Part shown: piece by piece, positions 50,315-55,952 of the stretch
How positions within the stretch are numbered: the stretch's first letter is position 1
Layout of the letters: each line of letters opens with the position of its first letter
Source of the DNA: an uncultured Bacteroidales bacterium
GTDB taxonomy: Bacteria > Bacteroidota > Bacteroidia > Bacteroidales > Barnesiellaceae
DNA length: 64,000 nucleotides
Assembly (NCBI GenBank): GCA_949298955.1
Contig: CASFYQ010000002.1
Span: 62,001 to 126,000 of the forward strand
Reading direction: 5' to 3'
Program-made: the position numbers and the translations under genes
Notes under the pieces: generated by a model
Databases searched by the model: none
Told to the model about the DNA's origin: nothing
Seen by the model: only the letters and a program-made list of their open reading frames with translations

Positions 50315-51424
50315 TCACAACACGCCTTTGGTGGAAGGTAACCGGTCATCGGTAAAATCGCGTCGTATCGCCATCTTCAAGGCTCGGGCCAACGCTTTGA
50401 AAATGCCTTCGATTTTATGATGTTCGTTGGTACCTTCGGCCTCGATATGCAGATTGATGCGGGCGGCATCGCTAAACGACTTGAAAAAGTGGAAAAACAT
50501 TTCGGTGGGCATATCGCCTATTTTCTCGCGGTGGAAATCGGCTTTCCACACCAACCACGAACGCCCGCCCAAGTCGAGGACTACGCGGCACAAGGCATCG
50601 TCCATGGGCAAAGAAAATCCATAACGGGCCAGTCCTCGCTTGTCGCCCAACGCCCGGCCAAATGCCTCGCCCAGCACAAGAGCCGTATCTTCGATGGTGT
50701 GATGCTCGTCGACTTGTAAATCGCCCTTTACCGTCACCGAGAGGTCTATCCCGGCATGACGTCCCAACTGGTCGAGCATATGGTCGAAGAACCCGAGACC
50801 GGTATGTATGTCGGTGCGGCCCGTCCCGTCGAGATTGAGCGAAAGTTGTATATCGGTCTCGGCTGTGCGACGTTCGAGAGAGACCCGACGGGTACCGGCA
50901 CATATGATTTCGGCCACTTTCCACCAATCGTCGGTAACCGCATCGCACACCGAAGCGAGTCCGGCAGCTTCGACCTCGGCCACCCCCCGCTCGGTCGAAG
51001 CAAAATAGATAGCCCGACACCCTATATTGGCAGCCAGTCGCACATCGGCAAGACAATCACCTATGACGTAGGAATGTGCCAGGTCATACTCCCCCGTGGT
51101 ATAGCGGGAAAGCTTGCAGGAACGGGACTCTTGCAGGGATAACATGTCGATGCAGACCGGCTCGAAACCGATTCCCTCATTTGCCAACATCTGCATAATC
51201 TTCGACTGTACAGGGCAAACGGACTCGGCCGGGAACGACAAGCCACCCTTGTTCTCCCCATCGACCACCATCACCCACTCGAAATCGAGCCGGGCCGCCA
51301 CATAAGCCAAACTTTGGAAAACTCGGGGACGGAACTCCAACGACTCCAACCTATCGATTGACAAGCCGATCGACGGCTCCACCAACAGTGCACCGTCGCG
51401 GTCGATAAAAATCACTCGTTTCAT
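50315..51424 (-). CDS. hisB: Bifunctional HisB: diverged phosphatase half plus imidazoleglycerol-phosphate dehydratase
   Basis: A 369-residue fusion. The C-terminal half (about 180-369) is a normal dehydratase, with FFDHMLDQLGRHAG, DEHHTIEDTAL and EGTNEHHKIEG binding the metals. The N-terminal HAD phosphatase half retains Asp8 and Asp10 (DRDGA) and a GDCLAD acidic motif (122-127), but the expected NQDGLGT motif reads VVDGENKGG (53-61) and no CRKP zinc loop is found; the region reads SCKLSRYTTG. Motif I ends in Ala where Thr is usual. Histidinol phosphatase activity may be reduced or lost. Gene order is hisG-hisD-hisC-hisB. Confidence 0.93.
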   Translation of the reverse strand: MKRVIFIDRDGALLVEPSIGLSIDRLESLEFRPRVFQSLAYVAARLDFEWVMVVDGENKGGLSFPAESVCPVQSKIMQMLANEGIGFEPVCIDMLSLQESRSCKLSRYTTGEYDLAHSYVIGDCLADVRLAANIGCRAIYFASTERGVAEVEAAGLASVCDAVTDDWWKVAEIICAGTRRVSLERRTAETDIQLSLNLDGTGRTDIHTGLGFFDHMLDQLGRHAGIDLSVTVKGDLQVDEHHTIEDTALVLGEAFGRALGDKRGLARYGFSLPMDDALCRVVLDLGGRSWLVWKADFHREKIGDMPTEMFFHFFKSFSDAARINLHIEAEGTNEHHKIEGIFKALARALKMAIRRDFTDDRLPSTKGVL

Positions 51425-51425
51425 C

Positions 51426-52493
51426 TCAATCGGTTTTATGGTAACGGCGCAAGGCCTCCATCAAAATATCCATCTCACGGGCCGTCCCGATAGTGATGCG
51501 CAGGCAGTCGCCGCACAACATCACCGACGAGCGGTTGCGCACCACGATACCCTCGCCCACCAGCCAACGATAGAGTCTTTCGGCATCGTCGATTCGTGCC
51601 AGCACAAAATTGGCATCACTGGGATAGACCCGGTGCACCGAAGGCAAAGCACCCAGTTGTGCGGAAAAACGGCTCCGCTCGGCCAATATATCGGTGACCC
51701 AACGGCGCACCTCATCGGCCCTATCGAGCATCGCGAGGGCATAGCGTTGCACCGGTTCGCTTATGTTGTAGGGGTATTTCACCCGATTATAATAGCCGAT
51801 TATCGTCGGTGAGGCAAAAGCCATGCCCAGCCGCACTCCGGCACTCCCCCACGCTTTCGAAAAGGTTTGCAGCACGACTAAATTGGGAAAATCGTCCAGC
51901 CGCCCGAGCCAAGAAGGCTGCGACGAGAAATCGATATAGGCCTCGTCGATTACCACGATACCTTCGAAATCGGCAACAAGCCGCTCAAGCTCGGCCGCCG
52001 GAAAAGCATTTCCCGTAGGGTTATTGGGCGAGCAGACAAAGAGCAACCGGCTGTCGGCATCGGCTGCCGCCAGGAGTGCATCGGCCCGGAGAGCGAAATC
52101 GTTGCTCAAAGGCACCTCGCGATACTCCACACCGTTGATGTCGGCACACACCCGATACATGCCATAGGTAGGAGTTATCGCCACGGCATTGTGGCGGCCG
52201 GGTTCGCAAAAAATACGATAGAGCAGGTCTATCGCCTCGTCGCTCCCCACGCCGAGGAAAATCTGCTCGGGGCGTACCCCCCGCTGTTCGGCCAACCGTT
52301 GTTTCACGCCCCATTGCAACGGATCGGGATAACGGTTATAAGGCTCATTGAAAGGGCTCTCGTTGGCATCGAGCCACACCGAGGCTTCGCCCGAAAACTC
52401 GTTTCGAGCCGAGGAGTAGGGACGCAACTGCCGGATATTGGGGCGCACCCATCGGTCTATCGGTTCACTCGACTGTATCATTGTCGTTTCCAT
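51426..52493 (-). CDS. hisC: Histidinol-phosphate aminotransferase
   Basis: A PLP enzyme of fold type I, 355 residues. Visible: WLDANESPFN and RYPDP in the N-terminal arm, GVGSDEAIDLLYRIFCEPG, VCSPNNPTGN, VVIDEAYIDF with the PLP-contacting Asp and Tyr, TFSKAWGSAGVRLG with the Schiff-base Lys, and RITIGTAREM near the end. It starts inside the end of hisD (29-bp overlap, or 17 bp from Met5) and is 1 bp from hisB. Confidence 0.97.
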   Translation of the reverse strand: METTMIQSSEPIDRWVRPNIRQLRPYSSARNEFSGEASVWLDANESPFNEPYNRYPDPLQWGVKQRLAEQRGVRPEQIFLGVGSDEAIDLLYRIFCEPGRHNAVAITPTYGMYRVCADINGVEYREVPLSNDFALRADALLAAADADSRLLFVCSPNNPTGNAFPAAELERLVADFEGIVVIDEAYIDFSSQPSWLGRLDDFPNLVVLQTFSKAWGSAGVRLGMAFASPTIIGYYNRVKYPYNISEPVQRYALAMLDRADEVRRWVTDILAERSRFSAQLGALPSVHRVYPSDANFVLARIDDAERLYRWLVGEGIVVRNRSSVMLCGDCLRITIGTAREMDILMEALRRYHKTD

Positions 52494-53784
52494 TATTCAA
52501 GGTTTGCAATCGCACGGCAACCGCTTGCCGGTGTGCCTCCAACTGTTCGGCCGTAGCCATTGTTTCGATGACGGGGCCAAGGCCTCTCAACCCCTCGGGC
52601 GAAATGTGCTGAAAAGTAATCTTGCGAGTAAAGCTGTCGAGATTGACCCCGCTGTAAGCCCGGGCATATCCGCTCGTGGGGAGGGTATGATTGGTACCCG
52701 AGGCGTAATCGCCCGCACTCTCGGGAGTATAATAGCCCAAAAAGACCGAGCCTGCATTAACGACCCTCTCGGCCCAAGCCTCGGCATCGGCCCGATGAAC
52801 AATCAAGTGTTCGGGGGCATAGGCATTGACCAGGTCGAGTTGCGCGTCATCGTCCTCAATCACGACAATCGAGCTATGAGCGAGCGACCGCTCTATCCAT
52901 TCGCGACGGGGCAAGAGAGCCGCCTGTCGCTCAATCTCGGCCGGCAAACGGCGAGCCAGGTCGCGGCAGCCCGTTACCAGTATCGACTGGCTGTCGGCCC
53001 CGTGTTCGGCTTGCGAGAGGAAATCGGCCGCCAGGAAACGCAGGTCGGCCTCCGCATCGGCGACCAGCATCACCTCCGAAGGGCCCGCCGGCATATCGAT
53101 AGCCACCCCGCAGAGCTGAACCTGTTGCTTGGCCTCCATGACATAGCGGTTACCCGGCCCGAAAATTTTTCCCACAGACGGCACACTCGCCGTACCGAAC
53201 GCCATCGCTCCCACGGCTTGCACCCCACCGAGTTTAAAAATGCGGTCGACCCCGGCCTCACGAGCGGCATAGAGAATAGCCGGGGCTATCTGCCCCTCCC
53301 GATTGGGCGGAGTACACATCACCACCTCGCGGCATCCGGCCAACCGGGCCGGGACAGCCAACATCAGCACCGTCGAAAAAAGCGGAGCCGTACCGCCTGG
53401 TACATAAAGCCCCACCCGCTCGATACCCACGGCTTTCTGCCAGCACCACACACCAGGCGAGGTCTGCACTCGCTTGACTCCGATTGCCTGCGAGGCATGA
53501 AATTTGCCGATATTCTCCATGGCCAGCCCGATAGCTCGTTTCAACGCATTGGGCACAGCGGCCGCAGCGGCTTCGATTTCGGCAGGAGTCACTTGAATAT
53601 CGGACAGTTCCACCCCGTCGAATTGACGCTCGTATCGCCGCAAAGCCTCATCGCCTTCGCGCCGCACCGCCTCCAAAATATCGGCTACGACACGCGACAA
53701 ATCGCCCGAGTCGATTCGAGGCCGAGCCAATATATCCGCCCATTCCCCGCGGGGCGGAGTGTCGTATATCTTTATCTTCACCAT
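52465..53784 (-). CDS. hisD: Histidinol dehydrogenase
   Basis: A zinc-dependent NAD enzyme that oxidises histidinol to histidine in the last two steps. The 439-residue protein has the family signatures RVGLYVPGGTAPLFSTV, IDMPAGPSEVMLVADA, AEHGADSQSILV and the C-terminal TLPTSGYARAYSGV. hisG ends 2 bp upstream of its start. Confidence 0.97.
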   Translation of the reverse strand: MVKIKIYDTPPRGEWADILARPRIDSGDLSRVVADILEAVRREGDEALRRYERQFDGVELSDIQVTPAEIEAAAAAVPNALKRAIGLAMENIGKFHASQAIGVKRVQTSPGVWCWQKAVGIERVGLYVPGGTAPLFSTVLMLAVPARLAGCREVVMCTPPNREGQIAPAILYAAREAGVDRIFKLGGVQAVGAMAFGTASVPSVGKIFGPGNRYVMEAKQQVQLCGVAIDMPAGPSEVMLVADAEADLRFLAADFLSQAEHGADSQSILVTGCRDLARRLPAEIERQAALLPRREWIERSLAHSSIVVIEDDDAQLDLVNAYAPEHLIVHRADAEAWAERVVNAGSVFLGYYTPESAGDYASGTNHTLPTSGYARAYSGVNLDSFTRKITFQHISPEGLRGLGPVIETMATAEQLEAHRQAVAVRLQTLNNGNDNDTVE

Positions 53785-53786
53785 CG

Positions 53787-54638
53787 TTACAAAATCATCT
53801 TTTCAATATCGAGCACCACGATGCCCTCGGCTCCGGCACCCTTCAACCGATTGATTATCTCCCAAAAACGTGTTTCGCCGAGCACCGTATGCACCGAACA
53901 CCAGGCCGGATCGGCCAGAGGCATCACCGTGGGGCTCTTGATTCCCGGCAACACAGCAAGCACCTCGCCCAGTTTCGTCTGTGGCACATTCATGAGAATG
54001 TATTTCTTGTCGTCGGCCGCCTGCACCGACTCGAAGCGAAAGAGCAATTCATCGAGAATCTCCTGCTTCGCAGCCGATAACGAGTCGGTACCGATGAGTA
54101 CAGCTTGCGAATCGACCACCTGCTCAACCTCTTTCAACCGATTGCTCACCAACGTACTGCCCGAGCTAACAATATCAAAAATTGCATCGGCCAACCGAAT
54201 GCCGGGAGCAATCTCGACCGAACCGGTAATGACGTGAATATCGGCCTCTATACCGTTTCGATGGAGGAAATCGGAAAGAATCCCGGGATAGGAGGTAGCA
54301 ATCTTGCGACCCGCAAACCAGCTTAACCCCGGATAATCGATATCCTGCGGTATCGCCAGCGACAGGCGGCATCGGCCGAAACCCAGTTTTTTGAGTACTC
54401 CCACGGGGCAACGCTTTTCCAACACCTCATTCAGCCCCACGATACCCACATCGGCCACTCCCGAAGCTACCGACTCGGGTATGTCGTCGTCACGCAAAAA
54501 CAAAACCTCGACCGGGAAATTCCGGGCCGGGACCAGCAGGATACGCTTTCCGCCCGGCAACTTGATTCCGGACTCTTCCAACAAGGCTACCGACTCATCA
54601 TAGAGCCGACCTTTCGACTGAATGGCAATTCTCAACAT
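53787..54638 (-). CDS. hisG: ATP phosphoribosyltransferase (long form)
   Basis: The first, feedback-inhibited step of histidine synthesis. From ATG 54638 the product has 283 residues, the long HisG with a C-terminal ACT-like regulatory domain (about 212-283: YILMNVPQTKLGEVLAVLPG). The catalytic core shows IAIQSKGRLYDES, ARNFPVEVLFLRDDDI and the phosphate-binding DIVSSGSTL. ATG 54659 would add MKKSKAI and is less likely. It is preceded by the his attenuator. Confidence 0.96.
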   Translation of the reverse strand: MLRIAIQSKGRLYDESVALLEESGIKLPGGKRILLVPARNFPVEVLFLRDDDIPESVASGVADVGIVGLNEVLEKRCPVGVLKKLGFGRCRLSLAIPQDIDYPGLSWFAGRKIATSYPGILSDFLHRNGIEADIHVITGSVEIAPGIRLADAIFDIVSSGSTLVSNRLKEVEQVVDSQAVLIGTDSLSAAKQEILDELLFRFESVQAADDKKYILMNVPQTKLGEVLAVLPGIKSPTVMPLADPAWCSVHTVLGETRFWEIINRLKGAGAEGIVVLDIEKMIL

Positions 54639-54678
54639 AATCGCTTTACTCTTTTTCATTTATTCCCGACAAAATAAA

Positions 54679-54711
54679 GGAGGGCTTGCCGTTCATTCCG
54701 GCAAGCCCTCC
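54679..54711 (-). terminator. Attenuator terminator of the his operon
   Basis: A perfect 13-bp GC-rich stem (GGAGGGCTTGCCG / CGGCAAGCCCTCC) with a 7-base loop is followed on the minus strand by TTTATTTT. It lies between the his promoter and hisG, so it can stop transcription before the structural genes. Confidence 0.85.
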
Positions 54712-54749
54712 ATATATGATTCCCTATGCAATTTCCATACATGCACCAC

Positions 54750-54809
54750 TCACCGTATTCCTTCACAAGGAATATGCAAATGGTAGCGATGGAACGACAG
54801 GAACAGCAT
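54750..54809 (-). CDS. hisL: Histidine leader peptide of the his attenuator
   Basis: A 19-residue open frame in the leader transcript, MLFLSFHRYHLHIPCEGIR, has three histidine codons among residues 7-12 and an adjacent Arg and Tyr. It starts about 15 bases after the predicted transcription start. A 7-bp hairpin (ATTCCTT/AAGGAAT, 54757-54773) lies directly after the histidine codons, and the terminator follows at 54711. This is the classic arrangement in which ribosome stalling at His codons prevents the terminator. The name is functional by position; no homologue was searched. Confidence 0.78.
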   Translation of the reverse strand: MLFLSFHRYHLHIPCEGIR

Positions 54810-54831
54810 AAGTATCGGTTTTAATTTTCGA

Positions 54832-54861
54832 CAAATATAATGCAATAAAAACGAAATGCAA
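54832..54861 (-). promoter_or_regulatory. Promoter of the his operon
   Basis: On the minus strand TATATTTG (54832-54839) follows TTG (54859-54861) after 19 bp. Transcription would begin near 54824, giving a leader of about 185 bases to hisG that contains the leader peptide and terminator. Confidence 0.65.
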
Positions 54862-54935
54862 ATATTTTTACCGATTTTTATTTCAATTATTTATCCATAT
54901 CCGACTTATTGCAACAATATGCTATTTCATGTCCA

Positions 54936-55952
54936 TTACATAAATATATTTACTATCCAATAAATACCGGCGGCCAGCAAGGCGCTCACGGGAATCGTAA
55001 GAATCCAGGCAAGCAGCAGGTCTTTGGTTACACCCCAGCGCACTGCCGAGAGCCGTTTGGTAGCTCCCACGCCGATAATGGCACCCGTAATGGTGTGGGT
55101 CGTGCTCACCGGGATTTTCAAGATTTCGGTCAGATAAAGCGTAAATGCCCCGGCCGTTTCGGCGACAACCCCTTCGAGCGGAGTCACCTTCGTAATTTTG
55201 GTACCCATTGTCCTGACAATCTTCCAGCCGCCCGACATCGTACCCAAAGAGATAGCGGTAAAACACGAGAACGCTACCCAGTCGGGCAAGTCGGCAATGC
55301 TGTTGATACCCATGCCCAATCCCATCGAATGGGCAGCAATCATGGCCGCAGCGATAATACCCATTACCTTTTGCGAGTCGTTCAATCCATGGCCTATGCT
55401 AAAAAGAGCCGACGACACCAACTGTAATTTCTTGAACCACACCTCGGCCTTATGCGGACGCACCTTGCGGCAAATATACAGCACCAGTATCGTGAACCCG
55501 AAGGCAATCACCATGCCGATAAACGGGGCCAAAAAGATAAAAGCGGCTATTTTGAGGATAATATTGAGCTGTATCGCACCGAACCCGCTCGCCATGATAG
55601 CGGCACCGGCAAAACCGCCGATGAGAGTATGCGACGACGACGAGGGTATGCCCTTCCACCAAGTGATAAGATTCCAGATGATAGCGGCAATGACACCCGA
55701 CAGAATGATGGGCAGAGTGATAAACTCCTCGACCACCGTTTTGGATACGGTATTGGCAATACCGAATCCGCCGATGATGTATTTTGCAATAAAGAAAGCT
55801 ACAAAGTTGAAGAAGGCTGCCCACAAAACCGCCTGAAAGGGGGTGAGAACCTTGGTCGAAACAATGGTCGCAATCGAATTGGCAGCGTCGTGAAATCCGT
55901 TGATAAAGTCAAACAACAGTGCCAAAATAATGATAACTATCAATAACTCCAT
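54936..55952 (-). CDS. Inorganic phosphate transporter (PiT family)
   Basis: A 338-residue membrane protein with about ten spans. The repeated PiT signatures are present: FINGFHDAANSIATIVSTKV near the N-terminus and PVSTTHTITGAIIGVGATKR near the C-terminus. It moves phosphate with protons or sodium, at low affinity. It lies 15 bp downstream of the PhoU-like gene, the common pairing for Pit transporters. Confidence 0.94.
   Translation of the reverse strand: MELLIVIIILALLFDFINGFHDAANSIATIVSTKVLTPFQAVLWAAFFNFVAFFIAKYIIGGFGIANTVSKTVVEEFITLPIILSGVIAAIIWNLITWWKGIPSSSSHTLIGGFAGAAIMASGFGAIQLNIILKIAAFIFLAPFIGMVIAFGFTILVLYICRKVRPHKAEVWFKKLQLVSSALFSIGHGLNDSQKVMGIIAAAMIAAHSMGLGMGINSIADLPDWVAFSCFTAISLGTMSGGWKIVRTMGTKITKVTPLEGVVAETAGAFTLYLTEILKIPVSTTHTITGAIIGVGATKRLSAVRWGVTKDLLLAWILTIPVSALLAAGIYWIVNIFM

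Follow-up and report, generated by a model that had tools for sequence, protein, structure and literature searches.

The leader of the hisGDCB operon in the window, that is, the whole 64,000-nucleotide stretch of a Barnesiellaceae genome analysed here, very probably acts as a histidine-responsive, ribosome-mediated transcription attenuator (probability about 0.92). On the minus strand the leader and the operon follow the order promoter, leader frame, hairpin, terminator and hisG-hisD-hisC-hisB, with these features:

54832 to 54862, minus strand: promoter, read directly, with TTTG (54862-54859), a 19-nt spacer and TATATTTG (54839-54832)
54750 to 54809, minus strand: leader frame MLFLSFHRYHLHIPCEGIR, 19 codons and the stop codon TGA (54752-54750), from direct reading and relatives
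54717 to 54817, minus strand: possible long-range helix between the leader ATG region (54817-54793) and the post-stop spacer (54743-54717)
54756 to 54774, minus strand: hairpin directly after the His codons, 8 bp (TATTCCTT/GTG/AAGGAATA), from the fold and compensatory changes
54748 to 54755, minus strand: predicted 5' strand of the antiterminator, CGGTGAGT, which includes the leader stop codon; from folds and relatives
54699 to 54706, minus strand: predicted 3' strand of the antiterminator, GCTTGCCG, the inner part of the 5' arm of the terminator; from folds and relatives
54679 to 54711, minus strand: intrinsic terminator hairpin, 13 bp with a 7-nt loop, followed by TTTATTTT (54678-54671)
53787 to 54659, minus strand: hisG, ATP phosphoribosyltransferase (PF01634 and PF08029)
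52465 to 53784, minus strand: hisD, histidinol dehydrogenase (PF00815)
51426 to 52493, minus strand: hisC, class I/II aminotransferase, hisC-like (PF00155 and operon context)
50315 to 51424, minus strand: hisB, imidazoleglycerol-phosphate dehydratase domain (PF00475)

The closest hisG genes belong to records named Barnesiella. Translation of hisG probably starts at 54638 (ATGTTGAGAATTGCC) and not at 54659, since the upstream in-frame ATG is absent from close relatives; at one of these loci (L002) TAA occupies its place. The promoter fits the Bacteroidetes consensus TTTG / TAnnTTTG (cited in PMC7366714), and transcripts are expected to begin about 5-8 nt past TATATTTG. At 37 of 44 loci the −7 element TAnnTTTG lies at most 80 nt from the leader ATG, compared to 4.7 expected.

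A 19-codon frame with three His in six codons (HRYHLH) had been pointed out in the initial annotation, strand unstated; it is present on the minus strand and is probably translated. Its His codons are numbers 7, 10 and 12 (54791-54789, 54782-54780 and 54776-54774). Of the dinucleotide-shuffled versions of the 260-nt upstream region, 0.13 % contain a short ATG frame in which three or more of six codons are His (p 0.0013). The comparison with relatives, likewise suggested at the outset, revealed such ATG frames in 57 of 80 distinct hisG upstream regions (shuffle mean 0.54, maximum 3, in 100 rounds) and frames with at least four His in six codons in 48 of the 80 (shuffle mean 0.02); these statistics ignore kinship. 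The motifs vary, with HHHHLH, HHSHVH, HLHHH, HHGHHH and others, and since the leader sequences differ among relatives it is the His content that is kept, not one inherited peptide. With its three separated His codons the window leader has fewer than most relatives, and its close relatives L002-L009 carry runs of the HHHH type. Relatives lacking a His-rich frame or a terminator before hisG were looked for as well, and most relatives are not of this kind. Some Prevotella-type loci and others have no His frame before hisG, so that the frame is, as judged from these loci, lost or replaced at places.

An intrinsic terminator stands between the leader frame and the first structural gene, which is where an attenuator has it. 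The perfect 13-bp stem with T tract that had been described from the letters alone is indeed found at 54711-54679 on the minus strand, with a predicted energy of −28.5 kcal/mol. In an alignment of 30 leaders, compensatory changes occur at 9 of the 13 pairs and 94.6 % of the cells are paired. The stem of the window is longer than those of L002-L009.

For read-through the terminator would have to be excluded by another structure, and pairing of CGGTGAGT with GCTTGCCG is supported as the antiterminator by folds and relatives. At 45 loci the segment from the last His codon to the terminator was compared with the 5' arm of the terminator. It pairs with the arm more strongly than dinucleotide shuffles do (mean z −2.3), with p≤0.05 at 31 and p≤0.01 at 19 of the loci, again with kinship ignored. 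A locus's own terminator arm pairs better than foreign arms (−13.3 vs. −10.4 kcal/mol; permutation p 0.0002, kinship ignored). Segment and arm also change together: GGTGAGC is found with GCTTACC or GCTTGCC, GGAAGCC with GGCTTCC, GCAGTAGGC with GCTTACTG and CGGCGGGC with GCTTGCCG. In the nine Barnesiella leaders, GGTGAGT of the 5' strand is identical throughout (9/9). The case for the proposed antiterminator is made by the relatives and the conserved position, not by the window's own complementarity, which does not exceed that of shuffles (z −0.59, p 0.26). On the plain MAFFT alignment of the 30 leaders compensatory changes in the antiterminator are few (3 of 8 pairs), because this set was chosen with similar terminators. 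Folding of the leader in search of mutually exclusive structures had been recommended in the initial annotation; an antiterminator that excludes the terminator is supported across relatives. The alternative pairing named there, CCAT...ATTCC with GGAAT...ATGG, is not the antiterminator and lies partly inside a hairpin of the open reading frame in the ribosome-free leader.

The hairpin noted directly after the His codons is present too; in the nine Barnesiella leaders it is kept by compensatory changes, with 93 % of the cells paired and two-sided changes at 6 of 8 pairs. Since only one base separates it from the antiterminator strand, one might conjecture that it stacks on the antiterminator or acts as a polymerase pause hairpin. 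The possible long-range helix is weakly to moderately supported by the sequences (p≤0.05 in 14 of 45 loci, mean z −1.19; window p = 0.21) and could disfavour the antiterminator on a leader without a ribosome. Two further helices were tried and rejected: pairing of the His codons downstream as a general protector helix gave no signal (mean z 0.07), and a hairpin of the post-stop spacer with the bases just before the terminator gave no clear one (mean z −0.28).

Across relatives the antiterminator strand begins a median of 16 nt (quartiles 15-18) past the last His codon. It usually overlaps or adjoins the stop codon, with overlap of the stop-codon zone in 84 % of their leaders. Downstream of the codon that it is reading, a ribosome occludes about 12 nt (PMC4833913). 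With this spacing the strand would therefore stay accessible while a ribosome is stalled at the last His codon, and be hidden once a ribosome has reached the stop codon. Constrained folds of the window leader, with the RNA ending at the 5' arm of the terminator, are consistent with this: CGGTGAGT pairs with the arm if the ribosome sits on the His codons, but not if it sits on the stop codon. Once the whole leader is available, the terminator wins in every constrained fold, that with the stalled ribosome included, so the choice must fall during transcription. The modelled antiterminator region (−20.1 kcal/mol) is far weaker than the terminator of the window (−28.5 kcal/mol), and antitermination would therefore have to be kinetic; the models thus suggest a kinetic order of folding while the RNA is made.

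The anatomy of the leader, its conservation, its complementarity and its spacing were observed, and from these the operon may be expected to respond to histidine as follows. A ribosome would load on the leader frame while the RNA emerges. If charged His-tRNA were scarce, it would stall at the His codons, which lie about 18 nt upstream of CGGTGAGT, and the free strand would pair with GCTTGCCG before the 3' arm of the terminator is made, resulting in read-through into hisG. If histidine were plentiful, the ribosome would reach the UGA inside CGGTGAGT and cover the strand; the terminator would form and transcription would end before hisG. Ribosome-mediated attenuation had been the initial reading of this leader, and it is supported by the conservation of the His frames and the terminator and by an antiterminator that excludes the terminator and lies at a suitable distance from the His codons.

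A covariance model (R1) was derived from 30 his leaders, the terminator being its sole structure. It matches 57 of 395 Bacteroidota genomes at E≤1e-4. At E≤0.01 it matches 213 of 393 Bacteroidales genomes, a tally that is not a count of his leaders because some of the weaker matches are other leaders or simply terminators. At 53 of the 54 best-match loci checked hisG is present, and in the genome of the window the only strong match is the hisG leader. Three loci (L138, L139 and L140) carry tandem His-rich leaders, each with its own terminator, before one hisG.

Judging from the sequences of relatives, the architecture of the his leader also precedes trp and ilv genes and, rarely, asn genes. 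Trp-rich frames (YWW, WWW, WWWHW) precede trpB or trpE at six loci (L124, L125, L129, L130, L141 and L142), with the layout of a stop-codon antiterminator and a terminator as in the his leader; in each locus the match lies around base 100, counted in the direction of transcription. One of these loci, L142, appears to have two Trp leaders in tandem. Before ilvD, an Ile-rich frame MLSKVTNIILIVIIILIDSM with a terminator was found at bases 99-161 of L126. Asn-rich leader frames stand before the asparagine synthetase genes asnB or asnA at three loci: MYLLNNNNLFNYNPFQW at bases 110-163 of L127, MFRNLNNNLTNNNANNHLL... and MNNLNNNFNNNNFSP in tandem on the reverse strand of L131, and MFILNNFNLLINNNPFER in L244; the tandem frames precede asnA. 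As a general feature Asn-rich leaders were rejected as rare, since only one of 20 further asnB genes has one; the counterpart for asnA was a sample of only two genes, and upstream of asnA in the window's own genome no Asn-rich frame was found. On balance we lean slightly towards a Bacteroidota-wide, uncatalogued class of compact attenuators in which the stop codon lies inside the antiterminator strand and the control codons are swapped for his, trp, ilv and occasionally asn operons, sometimes in tandem.

Other explanations of the leader have to be weighed against this evidence. The same-strand phosphate transporter gene upstream ends at 54936, and intergenic intrinsic terminators are common, so the terminator could serve that gene or be constitutive, with the His-rich frame being incidental. 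We consider this very improbable, as a conserved promoter and the His-rich frame intervene between the gene and the terminator, His-rich frames occur at 57 of 80 loci compared to 0.5 expected, and changes in the terminator arm go along with changes in the segment at the leader stop. The choice between terminator and antiterminator might instead be made by a ligand-binding riboswitch, a T-box or an RNA-binding protein rather than by a translating ribosome, and the extra conserved hairpins of the leader, which attenuation does not strictly need, could be taken as a hint in this direction. Against it, the sole feature common to divergent relatives is a run of His codons at a fixed distance from the antiterminator. 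A search of the leader against Rfam, at the gathering score and with E values up to 10, gave no relevant family: neither the enterobacterial His_leader model nor the T-box model matched, and up to E 10 there were no hits save three at chance level. A decision by ligand or protein is accordingly given the same very small weight as a terminator of the transporter gene.

Least credible to us is that the same architecture is controlled mainly by the general state of translation, through slow initiation, Rho or mRNA decay, and not by the level of His-tRNA. It is true that many bacterial leader frames act without codon-specific sensing (PMC4833913). Before hisG, however, the codons are specifically those for His, and in relatives with this architecture they are those for Trp or Ile before trp or ilv genes.

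Attenuation by a leader peptide, as we propose it for the window, is textbook knowledge for the his operons of enterobacteria, whose his leader is a set of six pairing segments. The his attenuator of Escherichia coli and Salmonella, which we take to be the Rfam family His_leader (RF00514), resembles the window in having a His-rich leader before hisG, an intrinsic terminator and an antiterminator chosen by the position of the ribosome. The window leader, however, is more compact and would use one antiterminator helix, the 5' strand of which holds the stop codon. Candidate attenuators in Bacteroidetes/Chlorobi are reportedly mentioned in the abstract of Vitreschak et al. from 2004. The catalogued cis-regulatory motif of Bacteroidetes, Bacteroid-trp (RF01692), is a separate family and has no match in the leader or in the whole genome of the window. 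The mechanism is of a known kind, and its Bacteroidota-wide version is without a matching Rfam family; the compact antiterminator with an internal stop codon seems to be unrecorded, as does an RNA-family entry for it.

This provides a probable attenuator whose predictions are testable at the level of single bases, in a major gut phylum where mRNAs have no classical Shine-Dalgarno sequences and few studies deal with amino acid control or the coupling of transcription and translation. The alignment of the comparative model might serve as the seed of an RNA family, and the model suggests that other amino acid operons are preceded by this design too. Outside the phylum, his attenuators described as separately acquired were predicted in the Bacillus cereus group, Eubacteriales and Erysipelotrichales (PMC9413887). 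They are similar in combining 3-5 His codons in a row with a terminator and an alternative antiterminator before his operons, but belong to another phylum, the Firmicutes. Within the phylum, a conserved structured 5' element of hisG without an Rfam hit was described in Flavobacterium psychrophilum and other Flavobacteriaceae, in a study that also sees strong clues that operons for amino acid biosynthesis are preceded by leader-peptide attenuators (PMC9723704). Both are structured regions before hisG in the same phylum, and the main text of that study contains no structure for comparison. Compared to the Flavobacteriaceae treated there, R1 reaches further and also matches hisG leaders from other classes or orders of the phylum.
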